Below are positions 1-16,777 of a DNA stretch of 33,399 nucleotides, piece after piece (within the stretch, counting starts at the first letter, position 1; each line of letters begins with the position of its first letter). This DNA comes from Micavibrio sp. Its GTDB lineage: Bacteria > Pseudomonadota > Alphaproteobacteria > Micavibrionales > Micavibrionaceae. Under the pieces are notes generated by a model. The model ran no database searches, was not told the origin of the DNA, and saw only the letters and a list, made by a program, of their open reading frames with translations. The stretch lies in assembly GCA_002695035.1 (NCBI GenBank), contig NZNU01000034.1, forward strand, positions 1 to 33,399, in the 5' to 3' direction. Made by a program: the position numbers and the translations under genes.

Positions 1-640
1 TAATCCCAAATTTGTAATTATCTGGCAGGCTTCCAAAGATTGGAGGAAGGGTGGCGATGATGCTTTTCCCCTGAAACTCTTTAATATCGTTTTGTAATGA
101 AAATTCGAGAGCTTTCGCCACGTAATAACAGAATTTTCTATAAGATTCTGAGCTTACAGAATACGATATATTTCGTTTTTTTAAATATCTCTGTGCTGAG
201 GGGTAGACTATTTCATAATTGTTGCACTTGAGTGCACTTATATAATTTTGGTGCTCCAATCGGGCTTCGTTTAACAAATGCTCCACTTCTACGTCAGTGT
301 GCTGAGTGTTTAAGGATTTTAATTTAGCCTTCTCCCATTTGTCTTCCTTTTCCTGAAACCACTCCAAAGCAAGACCAAGGAGGGCAACATCACTAAATTT
401 AGAGAGCTGATCAGCTTCCTTCTGGTTTATTTTTAATATTCTTTTTTGCTCAAAGTCATTTTCGAAAATGAGCATTTGCTTATGATATAGCTTTTTAGCG
501 TGTTCCAGAGTTTCAGTGCCCAAGGATTTTGAAACCGTTTCTGAATTGTACATATCGGAGACGTCTTGTGGTACACGTTTTCGAACATACCAAGTGTTGT
601 TTCGGCGTTTTAATCCAGGGTAATTAGACAAGTCTTCCAT
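1..640 (-). CDS. Tyrosine-type site-specific integrase, N-terminal part (cut by window edge)
   Basis: Reading leftwards from the ATG at 640, an uninterrupted frame runs off the window edge, giving about 213 residues. Residues 9-55 have the signature of the DUF6538 domain that begins many phage and island integrases: a basic LKRRNNTWYVRKRVPQDV stretch followed by SLGTETLEHAKK. The middle part is Lys/Glu-rich and probably the SAM-like core-binding domain. The catalytic domain with its Arg-His-Arg-Tyr residues would lie beyond base 1, so activity cannot be judged. GGAG touches the ATG directly, which is poor spacing, but the domain begins within ten residues of it, so the start is likely right. 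The gene sits 92 bases downstream of the 3' end of tRNA-Met in the same orientation, the usual layout of an element integrated into a tRNA gene. The family call is made from recognised sequence pattern; identity of the element is unknown. Confidence 0.72.
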   Translation of the reverse strand, partial: MEDLSNYPGLKRRNNTWYVRKRVPQDVSDMYNSETVSKSLGTETLEHAKKLYHKQMLIFENDFEQKRILKINQKEADQLSKFSDVALLGLALEWFQEKEDKWEKAKLKSLNTQHTDVEVEHLLNEARLEHQNYISALKCNNYEIVYPSAQRYLKKRNISYSVSSESYRKFCYYVAKALEFSLQNDIKEFQGKSIIATLPPIFGSLPDNYKFGI

Positions 641-644
641 CTCC

Positions 645-668
645 AATGTGTAACATAAATGTGTAACA
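645..668. repeat. Two tandem 13-bp-spaced copies of AATGTGTAACA
   Basis: The 11-mer AATGTGTAACA occurs at 645-655 and again at 658-668, just upstream of the integrase start codon and between it and tRNA-Met. Short direct repeats here are typical of integrase arm-type or excisionase binding sites, but that role is inferred from position only. Confidence 0.5.
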
Positions 669-731
669 AATTGGAAAATTTTATTATTTATTATCAGGAA
701 GTTGTTTGGTTTCAAGCCCTTAAATAGGGAT

Positions 732-808
732 TGGTAGCGAGGGAGGGACTTGAACCCCCGACACAAGGATTATGATTCCTCTGCTCTAACCACCTGAGCT
801 ACCCCGCC
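732..808 (-). tRNA. tRNA-Met (CAT), elongator type
   Basis: Read on the minus strand, 77 bases fold into a complete cloverleaf with an encoded CCA (732-734). The acceptor stem is GGCGGGG pairing with CCTCGCT (two G-U pairs), the D stem is GCTC/GAGC, the anticodon stem is GAGGA/TCCTT with loop ATCATAA, and the T loop is TTCAAGT. The anticodon is CAT. The body matches the elongator tRNA-Met pattern of alphaproteobacteria; tRNA-Ile2 (CAT with lysidine) is the alternative and usually has a different acceptor stem. A partial integrase gene follows its 3' end, so this gene is the probable attachment site. Confidence 0.93.
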
Positions 809-828
809 GAACCAAGTATCGAAACGAT

Positions 829-858
829 GTTATGTCCTAAAATGCACCTGCCTGTCAA
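829..858 (-). promoter_or_regulatory. Sigma-70 type promoter for tRNA-Met
   Basis: On the minus strand a perfect -35 box TTGACA (853-858) is followed after 18 bases by CATAAC (829-834). The predicted start lies about 14 bases before the mature tRNA 5' end at 808. Confidence 0.5.
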
Positions 859-931
859 GTTGAATATAGGTACCTTTTCCGACTTTTTTTGGCTTTTGTA
901 AGAATTGTAACATAAGGCAACAAAGCGTGAT

Positions 932-1020: not shown

Positions 1021-1959
1021 ATGTTGCAGAAAACACTCGCAAAAGAAGTTGCCCTCACAGGTGTAGGTGTGCATAGCGGTGTAGAAACTTTTCTTAAAAT
1101 TCTCCCGGCGCCGGCCAATAGCGGCATTACATTTGTCCGCACCGATGTAACTGACCGTGAAAACACGATCAAGGGTCTTTATTCCAACGTCAAGGAAACA
1201 ACGCTTTGTACTGTTATCCGTAATGATGCAGGTGTGTCCGTTGGCACAATCGAACACATCATGGCGGCCCTTCGCGCCTGTGACATTGATAACGCAGTTG
1301 TTGAGCTGGACGGGCCGGAAATTCCTATTATGGATGGTTCGAGCCGCCCCTTCATCCGCGCGATTGACTCAGTCGGCACACAGAAACTTGACCAGCCACG
1401 CAAAGCCATCAAAATTTTGAAAACTGTCGAATTTAAAGACGGTGACAAGGTGGTTACATTGATGCCGGGGCAGGGATGTTCATTTGATGTCACAATTGAC
1501 TTTGACAGCAAGGCAATCGGCAAGCAGCGCTCTGTTCTTGATTTAACCTTACAGGACTTTGAGACAGAAGCCTCTGATGCGCGCACCTTCGGCTTTTTAC
1601 ATGAGGTCGAATATCTGCGCTCACAAGGTCTGGCACTTGGCGGATCCTTGGATAATGCGGTTGTGATTGACGGTGACCGTGTGCTGAATTCCAACGGAAC
1701 ACGTTTCGACAATGAATTTTCACGTCACAAATTACTGGATGCTGTTGGTGATATCTATCTTGCAGGACTTCCTATTATTGGTCGTTATGAAAGCTATAAG
1801 GCAGGCCACGCCCTGAATAACCAGATTTTGCATACGCTTTTTGCTGATCCCACAGCCTATGAGATTGTTGATTTTGAAACTAAAGAAGCGGCTGATTCTG
1901 TAACGCATTTGATTGTTGCCGGGCGCTCGCAATCTGTTTCCAGTTTCGCAGAAGCCTAA
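1021..1959 (+). CDS. lpxC: UDP-3-O-acyl-N-acetylglucosamine deacetylase LpxC
   Basis: Zinc-dependent deacetylase that carries out the first committed step of lipid A synthesis in the cytoplasm. The 312 residues match the usual family length of about 305. Visible motifs are GVGVHSG near residue 16, the zinc histidine in GTIEHIMAALRACDIDNAVV (about residue 79), EIPIMDGSS, the second zinc site RHKLLDAVGDIYLAG (His and Asp, about residues 238-242) and the catalytic His in GHALNNQILH. The ATG at 1021 has no strong Shine-Dalgarno, but the family N-terminus (LQKTLAKEVALTGVGVHSG) begins there. In many alphaproteobacteria lpxC follows ftsZ at the end of the dcw cluster; here a tRNA and an integrase lie upstream, so a local promoter at 932-960 is likely. 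Confidence 0.98.
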   Translation: MLQKTLAKEVALTGVGVHSGVETFLKILPAPANSGITFVRTDVTDRENTIKGLYSNVKETTLCTVIRNDAGVSVGTIEHIMAALRACDIDNAVVELDGPEIPIMDGSSRPFIRAIDSVGTQKLDQPRKAIKILKTVEFKDGDKVVTLMPGQGCSFDVTIDFDSKAIGKQRSVLDLTLQDFETEASDARTFGFLHEVEYLRSQGLALGGSLDNAVVIDGDRVLNSNGTRFDNEFSRHKLLDAVGDIYLAGLPIIGRYESYKAGHALNNQILHTLFADPTAYEIVDFETKEAADSVTHLIVAGRSQSVSSFAEA

Positions 1960-12067: not shown

Positions 12068-13354
12068 ATGCGCTACCTTCCCCAGACAAAAAAAGCACAT
12101 CAGGAAATGCTCGATGCTATTGGCATTGGGACTGTGGATGAACTCTATAAAGATGTGCCTCAATCCGCATTGAAGACGGCAAAGATTGATTTACCGGATC
12201 ATGCTTCTGAGCTTGAGGTTGAGCGTCACATGTCGGTTATGGCTTCTAAAAACCATGCAGCCACTCAAGGTCCTTTTTTTCTGGGTGCGGGGTCGTATTA
12301 TCACCATGTGCCGGCAACGGTTGATTACATTATTCAGCGGTCGGAATTTCTGACGGCCTATACGCCCTATCAGCCTGAAATCGCACAAGGCACATTGCAG
12401 ATGATATTTGAATATCAGACAATGATTGCCCAATTAACGGGGCAGGATGTGGCTAATGCCTCTCTCTATGATGGTGCGACTTCTTTAGCCGAAGCTGCGC
12501 TTATGGCTATGCGTGTAACAAAAAAAGACCGTGTTTTGGTTGCTAACGATTTACATCCGCATTATGAGCAGGTGTTAAAAACATATGTTCCTCATCTGGA
12601 GGTTGAGGCCGATCACACATCAATTTCTGATGAAAGTCTGGCTTGCGTGATTATCCAGTCTCCCAGTTTCACAGGTAAGCCGGAAGACTACCAAAAATGG
12701 CGTGATTTTTGTGACGAGACAGATGCGTTACTCATTGTCGTTATCAATGAAATCATTTCGCTTGGGCTTTTACCTGCGCCAGAATTGGCGGACATAGTAT
12801 GCGGGGAGGCGCAAAGCATCGGTCTTCCAATGTCATTTGGCGGGCCGCATCTCGGCTTTTTTGCATCAAGAGAAAAATATCTGAGACAGCTACCGGGGCG
12901 GCTATGCGGGGAAACTACAGATGCGGATGGTAAAAGGTCTTTCGTATTAACGCTTTCCACTCGTGAACAACATATCAGGCGCGAAAAGGCGACGTCGAAT
13001 ATTTGTACCAATCAGGGGTTGTGTGCGCTGGCTTTCACTGTTCATATGGCTTTGCTAGGCGAAGACGGTTTTAAATCTCTTGCCAAGATTAATCATGAGC
13101 GAGCTTGTAAACTTGCGGATTCATTGTCTGAAATTGAAAACGTTAACGTTTTGAATGACCACTTTTTTAACGAATTCGTTATTAAACTGCCAAAACCTGC
13201 TAAAGAGGTCGTAAAAGAAATGACAAAAAAAGGGATTATTGCAGGATATGCTCTTGAAAACTCCCATCACCTTCTGGTAACAGCAACAGAGATGACCTCA
13301 GATGAGGATATAAATAATTTTTGTACTGTACTGGAAGAGTTGATTAATGACTGA
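12068..13354 (+). CDS. gcvPA: Glycine dehydrogenase (decarboxylating) subunit 1
   Basis: N-terminal half of the PLP-dependent P protein, which decarboxylates glycine and loads the H protein. The 428 residues begin with the family pattern MRYLPQTKKAHQEMLDAIGI and contain FLGAGSYYHHVPA, FLTAYTPYQPEIAQGTLQ and MSFGGPHLGFFA. It lacks the PLP lysine, which is in GcvPB, as expected for the two-subunit form. Its stop overlaps the downstream hydrolase start by eight bases, so gcvPA and gcvPB are separated by an unrelated coupled gene. Confidence 0.96.
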   Translation: MRYLPQTKKAHQEMLDAIGIGTVDELYKDVPQSALKTAKIDLPDHASELEVERHMSVMASKNHAATQGPFFLGAGSYYHHVPATVDYIIQRSEFLTAYTPYQPEIAQGTLQMIFEYQTMIAQLTGQDVANASLYDGATSLAEAALMAMRVTKKDRVLVANDLHPHYEQVLKTYVPHLEVEADHTSISDESLACVIIQSPSFTGKPEDYQKWRDFCDETDALLIVVINEIISLGLLPAPELADIVCGEAQSIGLPMSFGGPHLGFFASREKYLRQLPGRLCGETTDADGKRSFVLTLSTREQHIRREKATSNICTNQGLCALAFTVHMALLGEDGFKSLAKINHERACKLADSLSEIENVNVLNDHFFNEFVIKLPKPAKEVVKEMTKKGIIAGYALENSHHLLVTATEMTSDEDINNFCTVLEELIND

Positions 13355-14084
13355 GACCGAATTTGAAATAGATACAACCGCTCCTTATAAAATTGATGGT
13401 CTATTTAATAAGAACAGAGAAGGTGAGACGGATAAATTAATCATTATTGCACACGGTCTAACTGGATATTTAAACGAATTTTTATACCTTATGGCGGCAC
13501 GTTATTTCAGTGATAACGGCTTTGATGTGGTGCGTATTTCTTTTTACAGCGGTAACGAACACGCCAGAAAATTTAAAGATGTGACATTAAAAGATCACGT
13601 AGTGGATCTTCAAAAAACAATTGACCATTTTAAAGGGTCTTATAAAAAAATATTTGTTTGCGGTCATTCATATGGGGGTATGACAGCGGTTATGCTTAAT
13701 CCCGACATTACGGCCGTTTCTTTATGGGACAGTTCGCTTTATCCTTATACTGAGTATTGGGAACGAGAGACTGAGTGGTCAGATGAGTTTCAAACACGTA
13801 TCTATGATTACGGATATCCTGTAATTATTGGAAAAGAAATGTATGAAGATGCAAAAAACCTTACTTTTGAAGTCGTTTCAGAAGCTGCAGCAAAAATGAA
13901 AGCACCTACTCAGCTTGTTGTGGCTGGAAAGCATGCTGTTAGACCGGGCCAGCAAAAGATATTCGAACATTTTCCTGAGCCCAAGAAACATACATATATT
14001 CAAAACGCAGACCATTGCTTCACTTCAGGTAATTCCGTAGAACTCCTGTTTGATGAAACCCATCTCTGGTTTGATGAATTTTGA
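13347..14084 (+). CDS. Alpha/beta hydrolase embedded in the gcv cluster
   Basis: The 245-residue serine hydrolase fold shows IIIAHGLTG (oxyanion region, about 33-40), nucleophile elbow GHSYGG with Ser108, and catalytic His223 in NADHCF. There is no signal peptide, so it is predicted cytoplasmic. The ATG lies inside the last codons of gcvPA (eight-base overlap), showing translational coupling. The substrate is unknown; esterase or acyl-hydrolase activity is the family-level inference. Codons are more AT-rich than those of gcvPA or gcvPB, which could mean a later insertion into the operon. Confidence 0.82.
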   Translation: MTETEFEIDTTAPYKIDGLFNKNREGETDKLIIIAHGLTGYLNEFLYLMAARYFSDNGFDVVRISFYSGNEHARKFKDVTLKDHVVDLQKTIDHFKGSYKKIFVCGHSYGGMTAVMLNPDITAVSLWDSSLYPYTEYWERETEWSDEFQTRIYDYGYPVIIGKEMYEDAKNLTFEVVSEAAAKMKAPTQLVVAGKHAVRPGQQKIFEHFPEPKKHTYIQNADHCFTSGNSVELLFDETHLWFDEF

Positions 14085-14091
14085 CGTTCTA

Positions 14092-14202
14092 TTAATGTCT
14101 TACAGGTTCTGAAGTTTGTTGCACGCCTTTTGGTAACCACTCGTATTTTTCGGGTTGTGGTTTTGGGTCAGCCTTAAAAAGTTTCAATGTTCCTTTTGTC
14201 AT
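14092..14202 (-). CDS. 36-residue microprotein
   Basis: A short minus-strand frame starts at ATG 14202, with AGGAG at 14209-14213, and ends at TAA 14092. The product has 36 residues and begins MTKGTLKLFKADPKPQPEKY. It is Lys/Pro-rich with one Trp and no hydrophobic helix or signal. A promoter match, TTGCTT-17-TTATAA, lies immediately upstream (14222-14250). The gene is convergent with the hydrolase, leaving seven bases between the stops. The family is not recognised. The coherent promoter, ribosome site and frame argue that it is real. Confidence 0.55.
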   Translation of the reverse strand: MTKGTLKLFKADPKPQPEKYEWLPKGVQQTSEPVRH

Positions 14203-14221
14203 ATTTTCTCCTGCTTTAGTT

Positions 14222-14250
14222 TTATAATTATTGTTGTCCCCTCAAAGCAA
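14222..14250 (-). promoter_or_regulatory. Candidate promoter of the 36-residue microprotein
   Basis: On the minus strand TTGCTT (14245-14250), 17 bases, TTATAA (14222-14227). The predicted start near 14215 leaves a very short leader that just includes the AGGAG ribosome site. Confidence 0.4.
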
Positions 14251-14294
14251 CGCAGCAAAGGCCCTGCCTTGGGAACCAGCAAAGCCTTTGCGCG
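14251..14294. repeat. Stable inverted repeat between the microprotein genes
   Basis: GCAAAGGC (14255-14262) pairs with GCCTTTGC (14284-14291), extended by CGC/GCG across one bulged base; the 21-base loop can form a small inner stem. No U tract follows on either strand, so it is not a classical terminator. It could be a structured RNA leader or a small repeat element. Confidence 0.45.
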
Positions 14295-14334
14295 AATGCG
14301 GCGTTATGGAGTATTAACAAAACTTACCGCATCT

Positions 14335-14382
14335 AAAGTCAAAGGATGTCTTTATTGCAGGACATCCTTTTAATTTGACTTT
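14335..14382. terminator. Long hairpin after the 41-residue microprotein gene
   Basis: AAAGGATGTC (14341-14350) and GACATCCTTT (14361-14370) are perfect complements around a ten-base loop. AAAGTC (14335-14340) and GACTTT (14377-14382) extend the stem across an internal loop. It begins at the stop codon of the minus-strand microprotein, so a terminator or 3' stabiliser is the likely role. It is near-symmetrical and could act both ways. Confidence 0.65.
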
Positions 14383-14507
14383 TATTTCTGGCGTTGCTGG
14401 CTCGAGCGATCACGTGAGCCTTCACGAGCTGGATTTTTGCTCGGCGATTTTTGGCGCTGTTGTTGATCCTGTTTATTTTCTCTTGGATTTTGGGGTTGGT
14501 TTTTCAT
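14382..14507 (-). CDS. 41-residue hydrophilic microprotein
   Basis: A short minus-strand frame runs from ATG 14507, behind a perfect AGGAGG at 14514-14519, to TAA 14382. The 41-residue product begins MKNQPQNPRENKQDQQQRQK and consists almost only of Gln, Lys, Arg, Asn, Ser and Pro, so it is predicted to be disordered, basic and soluble. An EcfG-type promoter match lies about 42 bases upstream, and a long hairpin starts at the stop codon, giving a complete small transcription unit. The composition recalls small stress-induced hydrophilic proteins, but I do not recognise a family. Confidence 0.65.
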   Translation of the reverse strand: MKNQPQNPRENKQDQQQRQKSPSKNPAREGSRDRSSQQRQK

Positions 14508-14548
14508 GATAGTCCTCCTAGACATATCTTGGTTGGTGATGCACTATA

Positions 14549-14574
14549 AACGCTCTTAATGCCGGGCTTGTTCC
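14549..14574 (-). promoter_or_regulatory. EcfG (general stress sigma factor) promoter match
   Basis: On the minus strand GGAAC (14570-14574), exactly 17 bases, CGTT (14549-14552). This matches the GGAAC-N16/17-CGTT consensus used by EcfG/RpoE2/SigT sigma factors in the alphaproteobacterial general stress response. The predicted start lies about 30-35 bases before the ATG of the 41-residue microprotein. The rest of 14508-14684 holds no gene that I can support. Confidence 0.55.
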
Positions 14575-14684
14575 CTGCTAAAGATGATAAAAAGACGGCA
14601 GGGTAAATTCCTGTTAGAAATCAAAAGCATGTCTTCAAAAAAATAATTCTTATTACACGGGGGTGTGCAATTACAGGCGGTTTT

Positions 14685-15212
14685 ATGACATTTTCGACAA
14701 TAGATATTTTGCTTCTTGTTTCGGCAATGTTCGGAGTTTACGGACTTTCCGCAAATGGCCGTCGGCGCATTCTCAGTTGCAAGTTTTTCTGCGATGTCTT
14801 TTTTGCGCTCTACTTGTATTTTTTAGGGGGATATACCGGTACAATGAGTGCTGGGATAGCAGCATTAGGCGCTTTGATACAGCTTGCATCGCCTGACAAA
14901 TATCTTGGTAAAACCTTAAAAATCAGAATTATTTTGGCTGTGGTACTTAGTATTGCGGGTATTGCTGTATTGGCGCGCAACCTGACGGATATATATCCTT
15001 TCATATCCGTGGTGGTATCCAGATTTGGTGAGCTGTCTTCCCGGACTCTTATAATAAGGGCGGGTTTTTTAACGGCTTGCATACCTTGGATGATTTATAA
15101 CTACAGTAATGAATTTTATTTGGCATTAGGCTTTAATTTTCTTATGGTGATTGCGCTTCTAACCGGAATCGTGCGTAATGAGAGAAACGTGAAAAAGGAT
15201 CAGGTATTATGA
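14685..15212 (+). CDS. YgjV-like inner membrane protein
   Basis: The 175-residue product is largely hydrophobic, with about five predicted membrane segments, starting TIDILLLVSAMFGVYGLSAN. The pattern of a first helix, a basic RRRILSCKF turn, YFLGGYTGTMSAG and then further helices resembles the YgjV family (Imp-YgjV), whose function is unknown. The ribosome site is weak (AGGCGG). Its stop codon overlaps the gcvPB start (ATGA), so gcvPB translation is probably coupled to it. This makes it part of the gcv transcription unit, although the relation to glycine cleavage is unknown. Confidence 0.6.
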   Translation: MTFSTIDILLLVSAMFGVYGLSANGRRRILSCKFFCDVFFALYLYFLGGYTGTMSAGIAALGALIQLASPDKYLGKTLKIRIILAVVLSIAGIAVLARNLTDIYPFISVVVSRFGELSSRTLIIRAGFLTACIPWMIYNYSNEFYLALGFNFLMVIALLTGIVRNERNVKKDQVL

Positions 15213-16777
15213 GTGGAGCCGCTTTAAAAGACCCGCGAAATTCAAATGTTCATAGCGCATCGGATGCGCGCATTGAAGATACGACCCATGCCCTTTACCA
15301 AGCCGAGCCATTGCTTTGGGAAAAAGAGCAATGCGATCATTCAGGAGCGGATTGGAAAGCTCCTGAGGATTTCAAAAGCAGGACGGGGGCAAAGGCACGC
15401 GCCGAGATAGGTTTGCCACAAGTCAGCGAGCCCGAAGTGATGAGACATTTTGTACGCTTGTCTACGTGGAATTACTCAATTGACAGCGGCTTTTTTCCTC
15501 TTGGATCCTGCACGATGAAGCATAACCCGCGGTTAAATGAAAAATTGGCAAGACTGCCCGGCTTTGCACATATTCACCCCCTGCAGCCCGAAGAAACAGT
15601 CCAAGGCGCGCTGGAATTGATGTATGAGCTTCAAAACTGGATTGCAGAACTGACAGGCCTGCCCGGTGTATGTCTTACACCTGCTGCCGGTGCCCATGGC
15701 GAGCTTGCAGGTATGATGACCATTAAACGCGCACATGAGCTAAAGGGCGAGACACAACGTAAATATGTCCTAGTCCCGGATAGTGCCCACGGCACCAACC
15801 CGGCAACGGCCGTGATGTGTGGTTATGAAACACGTATTATTGATACGAAAGAAACAGGGCGCGTTTCAGTGGAGGCTTTCAAAGAAGCCCTTTATAAAAC
15901 AGATGAAACAGGCGCGGATATTGCGGGTATGATGGTGACTAATCCGAATACTTGCGGTTTGTTTGAGCGCGATATTCAAGAGCTTTCAAAATTGCTGCAT
16001 GAGGCCGGCGGGTATTTTTATTGTGACGGTGCTAACTTTAATGCGCTGGTTGGGAAAATAAGACCCTCTGATTTCGGCGTTGATGTCATGCACCTCAATC
16101 TGCATAAAACCTTTTCAACGCCCCATGGCGGAGGTGGGCCTGGTTCCGGGCCAATTTGTGTGACTGAAGAATTATTGCCTTACGTTCCGCGTCCTTTGGT
16201 TGTAAAGGATGGTGGTACATTCAGGCTTGAGGAGGACAATGAACGCGAAACATCTCTTGGCAGGTTGAAAGGGTTTCAAGGCCAGTTTGGTATGCATGTG
16301 CGCGCTCTGTCTTATATGATGAGCCACGGTAAGGACGGGCTTCGCAAAGTTTCAGAAGATGCGGTTTTGCATGCAAACTATATCTTAAGCCAGTTAAAAG
16401 ACGACTATCATGTGCCTTTTGAAGGGCCTTGTATGCATGAATGTCTTCTAACAGATAAGCGTCAGAAAGATGGCGAGGTAACAACCATGGATATTGCAAA
16501 AACGCTTGTCGAAAATGGTATGCATCCAATGACGGTTTACTTCCCATTGGTTGTTTCCGGCGCGATGTTGATTGAGCCGACTGAAACAGAATCAAAGGAA
16601 AATATCGATCGGTTTATTACTGTAATGAAACAAATTGCAGAAGATACCAAAGCAGGGGATACGGATAAATTTCATAACTTCCCTGTCAGCGCACCCCGCA
16701 GGCGTCTTGATGAGGTCAAGGCTGCCCGCCAGCCAAAATTAAGGTGGACAGAAGATAATACAACAAAGAATCACTGA
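15209..16777 (+). CDS. gcvPB: Glycine dehydrogenase (decarboxylating) subunit 2
   Basis: C-terminal, PLP-binding half of the P protein; it pairs with GcvPA. The 522 residues contain SGFFPLGSCTMKHNPR (about 96-111), LTPAAGAHGELAGM, DSAHGTNPATA, and the PLP lysine Lys300 in HLNLHKTFSTPHGGGGPGSG. AGGATCAGG lies upstream of the ATG at 15209, which overlaps the YgjV-like stop. A terminator hairpin begins at the stop codon, ending the glycine cleavage cluster. The lipoamide dehydrogenase (L protein) is not in this window. Confidence 0.97.
   Translation: MSGAALKDPRNSNVHSASDARIEDTTHALYQAEPLLWEKEQCDHSGADWKAPEDFKSRTGAKARAEIGLPQVSEPEVMRHFVRLSTWNYSIDSGFFPLGSCTMKHNPRLNEKLARLPGFAHIHPLQPEETVQGALELMYELQNWIAELTGLPGVCLTPAAGAHGELAGMMTIKRAHELKGETQRKYVLVPDSAHGTNPATAVMCGYETRIIDTKETGRVSVEAFKEALYKTDETGADIAGMMVTNPNTCGLFERDIQELSKLLHEAGGYFYCDGANFNALVGKIRPSDFGVDVMHLNLHKTFSTPHGGGGPGSGPICVTEELLPYVPRPLVVKDGGTFRLEEDNERETSLGRLKGFQGQFGMHVRALSYMMSHGKDGLRKVSEDAVLHANYILSQLKDDYHVPFEGPCMHECLLTDKRQKDGEVTTMDIAKTLVENGMHPMTVYFPLVVSGAMLIEPTETESKENIDRFITVMKQIAEDTKAGDTDKFHNFPVSAPRRRLDEVKAARQPKLRWTEDNTTKNH

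Follow-up and report, generated by a model that had tools for sequence, protein, structure and literature searches.

In tRNA-targeted genomic islands of the kind found in Islander (PMC4383910), the integrase gene is beside an intact tRNA 3' end and a displaced fragment of the tRNA 3' end is at the far end of the island. Arm-binding tyrosine recombinases, including IntTn916, IntBPP-1, and IntSXT, among others, have an N-terminal domain of three strands and one helix, followed by the core-binding and catalytic domains (PMC8138268). For IntS of ICEMlSymR7A, arm-type repeats with the sequence TGKTGGTATC are present across attP and repression of its own gene has been shown by experiment (PMC11963761). 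The window, the whole stretch of 33,399 bp of Micavibrio DNA analysed here, is an entire contig (C58) of a 2.14 Mb assembly (genome G000). Its first 731 bases are very probably the attL side of an island integrated at a tRNA-Met gene, the integrase of which carries the domain DUF6538 and is predicted to bind paired arm sites.

On the minus strand, a frame without a stop runs from an ATG at 640 to 2, giving 213 codons up to the contig end; the integrase ORF is cut before its catalytic domain because the contig itself stops at base 1. The frame encodes DUF6538 (PF20172) at residues 10–67 (440–613, E-value 4e-12), at 46 bits against the Pfam gathering score of 27 bits, and then a helical region. 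Codon 4 (window 629–640) is a start codon, TTG, ATG, or GTG, in all of the family homologues, which would mean that the true start may be the TTG at 631 and not the ATG at 640. A tRNA-Met(CAT) gene with its CCA encoded was identified by ARAGORN at 732–808, also on the minus strand, 92 bp from its 3' end to the start of the integrase ORF; it is assigned as tRNA-Met by its anticodon, CAT, and may alternatively be tRNA-Ile2. The original prediction had an open minus-strand frame from 640 beginning with DUF6538 and placed it directly behind the tRNA 3' end, co-oriented with the tRNA; both of these features are present as described. The GC content is 37.7% in 1–640 and 36.5% in 1–731, compared with 45.4% for the remainder of the contig, and only 1.6% of stretches of equal size have GC as low as that of 1–640.

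Genome G002, of the same genus, does not have the island at its tRNA-Met, which is identical to that of the window. Rightward from this site, in the chromosomal flank that holds lpxC (1021–1959, plus strand; PF03331, E-value 6e-103), the window and G002 share 97% identity over 2,254 bp, while leftward they are unrelated. The break is exactly at 731/732, coinciding with the final base of the tRNA CCA, and 1–731 is without a counterpart in G002. The final 18 nt of the tRNA gene, GTCCCTCCCTCGCTACCA (732–749, minus strand), are the predicted attL core, based on this end of homology and on the blocks of identity between attL and attR in complete relatives. Since this is a draft assembly of 82 contigs and one of them ends here, the first 731 bases could be imagined to be a chimeric join made by the assembler, but a random join would not be expected to fall exactly at the CCA of a tRNA, nor to carry repeats at +64 and +77, the modal geometry of the family (see below), and we regard this explanation as hardly credible.

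Beyond the tRNA in G002 there is a remnant of an RTX gene, reduced to about 27 codons (L040 6100–6246), followed by a 223-aa ORF and DedA-like, old-yellow-enzyme, and aldehyde dehydrogenase genes. This block is found on contig C25 of the window's genome, with a 258-aa ORF between the RTX and DedA-like genes. The RTX copy on C25 is the longer of the two and is cut by the contig end, which would place the island between tRNA-Met and this block and its attR beyond C25. Contig C25, which has the G002-type flank, was considered as the far side of the island, but it has no tRNA 3'-end copy in its first 9 kb. The short RTX copy in G002 against the long copy on C25 indicates a deletion at the site, perhaps from an earlier island. 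The RTX gene on C25 (L063 1000–1400) contains many N bases, suggestive of mixed strains or uneven assembly coverage.

The remainder of the island was sought in the assembly and beyond it. Five other integrases score above the cut-off in the assembly, each with its own frame, and none continues the 640–2 frame. With up to 2 mismatches allowed, the tRNA 3' end has no further copy anywhere in the assembly, nor is there a second repeat pair above chance, the reversed-pattern control having given more matches. Close relatives of the integrase fragment were not found in the genome contigs, viral contigs, plasmids, or phages, and an alignment-based search of viral contigs for relatives likewise found none. 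That neither the catalytic domain nor attR is found could indicate that the window edge is a dead fragment, left by an island that has decayed and whose integrase gene is truncated, as fragments and frameshifts do occur among the relatives of this integrase (e.g., L083). A gap in the assembly accounts equally well for both missing parts, however, and there is no stop in the frame before the contig ends, nor any mismatch in either arm repeat, so that decay is considered unlikely and an island edge at the end of a contig is preferred.

Full-length homologues of the integrase are 586–633 aa and consist of DUF6538 and Phage_integrase, with a recognised core-binding domain in two cases. Arg422, Lys464, His535, Arg538, and Tyr570 (L157 numbering) of the catalytic domain (PF00589) are invariant in 16 full-length relatives. 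DUF6538 itself was found in 92 out of 398 genomes sampled across the phylum. The homologues lie behind a same-strand tRNA 3' end at all six family loci, at 17 out of 29 loci in the class, and at 58 out of 70 loci in named genomes, where the other 12 have no detected tRNA; ten tRNA families are targeted. In 7 out of 8 DUF6538 islands there is a copy of the tRNA 3' end, 17–29 nt long, 7–54 kb downstream, although no attR was found in the 60 kb stretch that was followed in G308. The block of identity between attL and attR in the complete relatives begins 17–20 nt before the CCA end, and the 18-mers of the 70 named-genome loci gave 9 matches, compared with none for reversed controls. That 1–731 is the edge of an integrated element, as had originally been proposed, is supported by the homology break at 731/732, by the tRNA adjacency across the family, and by repeat pairs at both ends of the complete relatives.

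Some of the relatives have other features near the integrase gene. A conserved gene of approximately 360–370 aa follows the DUF6538 integrase in three of them (L084 7426–8538, L083 4758–5867, L081 12102–13187); it has no Pfam match and, from its motifs, is possibly a replication initiator or relaxase, which is a guess. In G337 (L142–L143), 45 bp of the attL region recur in inverted orientation directly past the integrase gene, the arm repeats there being inverted too. In G104 (L087 9396–9845), the end of a saccharopine-dehydrogenase-like ORF resembles integrase residues 105–191, either a fusion or an assembly error.

In the sister species genome G001, a different element of 11.9 kb is present in the same tRNA-Met (91% identical to that of the window), with a 576-aa integrase frame that starts at the tRNA end, and it is closed at attR by a 28 bp copy of the tRNA 3' end. 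A 1680-aa RTX protein is encoded beside this attR, and the element has its own repeat-like sequences near both ends (L041 6964–8738; G001:C1). It has in common with the window the target tRNA-Met, a core at the tRNA 3' end (a 28 bp repeat in G001, predicted in the window), and an integrase beside attL, but the G001 integrase is divergent, with a DUF6538 score of only 19.7 bits, under the cut-off, and its RTX cargo is different. The presence of islands at the same tRNA-Met in the window and in G001 shows that members of the genus have received insertions at this tRNA on at least two occasions. The window's own genome has a further island-like locus (L043, G000:C5, 5207–6646), with an Arm-DNA-bind_3 integrase behind another tRNA with a CAT anticodon, near rpoD- and dnaG-like genes.

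It had also been proposed that lpxC and the cell-division genes are kept apart by the island. This was a reasonable expectation, given that ftsZ is close upstream of lpxC in several family members, but it is not borne out. In the window's genome, ftsZ is on contig C15 in a run of murG-murC-murB-ddl-ftsQ-ftsA-ftsZ, then an mnmA-like gene (the names other than ftsZ having been read from the sequences), and no ftsZ was seen adjoining lpxC in G001. There is no ftsZ beyond the tRNA in the island-free G002 either, which would mean that the separation of ftsZ from lpxC is not due to the island in the window. Elsewhere in the window (12068–16777), the two glycine-decarboxylase subunit genes appear, as read from the sequence, to have two ORFs between them, one hydrolase-like and the other small and membrane-like.

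When the stretches between the tRNA and the integrase gene are aligned, the sequence TGnTACACA is seen twice in tandem just before the integrase start. In the window, TGTTACACA is present at exactly +64 (660–668) and +77 (647–655) from the tRNA end, on the minus strand, with both of these putative arm-type copies perfect and the second beside the integrase start. Across 54 non-redundant loci, 32 have the repeat, with at least 7 out of 8 positions matching, at exactly 13 bp spacing between +45 and +85, compared with 0.5 in shuffles; a spacing of 12 bp was found 4 times and other spacings 0–1 times, and the modal start is +64, the same as in the window. These statistics were designed after the repeat had already been seen in the first loci. 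The two copies have the same variable base in 39 out of 52 loci, where 16.6 would be expected.

All 7 complete islands have an equivalent pair approximately 85–116 bp inside attR, with unchanged orientation and often of the same variant, and in 7 out of 9 further cases from the named-genome loci the pair is 100–103 bp inside attR. Judged by sequence, the presence of repeat pairs at both ends of the relatives is the layout of arm-type sites flanking a core; in the window itself the attL-side pair is present, and pairs on both sides are seen only in relatives. The tandem repeats might instead act solely as an operator at which the integrase gene is repressed, be it by the integrase or by another protein, and not as recombination arms, as the second attL copy is directly beside the integrase start and as IntS of ICEMlSymR7A represses its own gene (PMC11963761). 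The same-orientation pair inside attR is, however, far from the integrase promoter, and the variable base of the repeats tracks a residue of DUF6538, which together make a role as operator alone improbable and favour arm sites.

Distances between half-sites follow distances between DUF6538 domains (r 0.24, P = 0.0005), and this remains so when the catalytic domain is controlled for (partial r 0.215, P = 0.0005), while the catalytic domain adds nothing once DUF6538 is controlled for (-0.03). One DUF6538 column stands out, with a z of 9.5, the next being 4.8. This column lies three positions N-terminal to the conserved Leu in SLxT and corresponds to residue 37 in the window, a Ser encoded by the minus-strand codon at 532–530. 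In the first set of loci, Lys and most Arg at this position are found with G at base 3 of the repeat, Trp with C, and residues that are small or polar mostly with T. The association of Lys or Arg with G was fixed in writing before fresh loci were fetched, and one of these that was already in the first set was left out. Where the fresh loci have clear repeats, G is found in 17 out of 19 cases with Lys or Arg and in 1 out of 12 with other residues (Fisher P = 1e-5; other thresholds give 1e-4 to 1e-5). A rule with three residue classes, in which Trp was grouped with Phe and Tyr once the data had been seen, fits 24 out of 32, against a permutation mean of 13.4 and maximum of 22. Exceptions are some Arg with T and one Lys with T. 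The window, with Ser37 and T at base 3, is in line with the rule and is not a test of it, serine not being clearly assigned.

Shared ancestry is a caveat to this association. A tree from which DUF6538 was left out requires at least 16 changes of the Lys/Arg state and at least 14 of base G. In the 38 nearest pairs, the residue class differs in 9, of which 5 have the base shifted in the same way and none in the opposite way, while the residue class agrees in 29, of which 1 has a changed base. A strict independent-pairs test on 8 supported pairs gave a mean of 3.6 in the same direction and 0.1 in the opposite direction, with a median P of 0.125, the pairs being too few for significance.

An AlphaFold2 model of the 213 residues from the window with 47 relatives has a pLDDT of 93. 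It predicts strands at 10–13, 16–22, and 35–39, a short helix at 25–30, and a long helix at 45–74, with residue 37 on strand 3, and so fits the three-strand, one-helix layout of arm-binding domains. In a Foldseek search, the 213-aa model had no significant match in the PDB, including any solved arm-binding domain, perhaps because its long helices dominate the model. The model of a full-length homologue, with a pLDDT of 82, matches Tn1549 Int and lambda Int.

From the repeats, the residue–base association, and the predicted fold, DUF6538 is probably an arm-binding domain. A tyrosine integrase would have recombined the tRNA-Met 3' end over a core of approximately 18 nt, which would leave the tRNA whole at attL, with a copy of its 3' end expected at attR, off the contig, and the integrase gene would read outward from attL. 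DUF6538 would recognise the two direct TGTTACACA repeats at +64 and +77, with their 13 bp spacing, and in relatives also the pair approximately 100 bp inside attR. In the manner of lambda-type integrases, a single integrase may link the core to the arm sites, DUF6538 being the part that contacts the arms, and it might also excise the island. Since the attL pair lies right against the integrase start, an integrase bound there probably represses its own gene as well. More generally, the evidence leans towards DUF6538 being a distinct class of arm-binding domain in the Alphaproteobacteria and other classes of the phylum, in which the strand 3 residue at position 37 determines base 3 of the paired TGnTACACA sites (Lys or Arg with G, Trp or Phe with C) at fixed distances from att sites in tRNA 3' ends.

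The island edge itself is ordinary, belonging to a known kind of element. What is gained is a specific and cheaply testable job for a widespread domain of unknown function, with predicted sites and a predicted specificity residue, and the fixed-distance paired repeats provide a signature for island ends in cases where only a short tRNA repeat is present or one of the ends is absent. The term DUF6538 is not mentioned in the literature searched and, as far as that search extends, an arm-binding role for it with fixed-distance paired sites and a tracking residue is undescribed; most subscription papers were outside the search, and an earlier description elsewhere is possible.

In comparison with the islands in Islander (PMC4383910), the integrase beside an intact tRNA 3' end is shared, as is, in relatives, the displaced tRNA 3' fragment at the far end, while the right end of the window's copy is absent from the assembly, which leaves only one of its two end points to be mapped. 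With the arm-binding recombinases (PMC8138268), the predicted structure shares the N-terminal three strands and one helix that precede core-binding and catalytic domains, but here the N-terminal domain is DUF6538, in which strands 2 and 3 are separated by an extra short helix, and a long helical stretch leads up to the core-binding domain. The arrangement of IntS in ICEMlSymR7A (PMC11963761), where the integrase is directly downstream of attL with repeated arm-type sites, is similar by description; there the arm sites are five in number and of another sequence, whereas the family of the window has one pair per end at 13 bp spacing.
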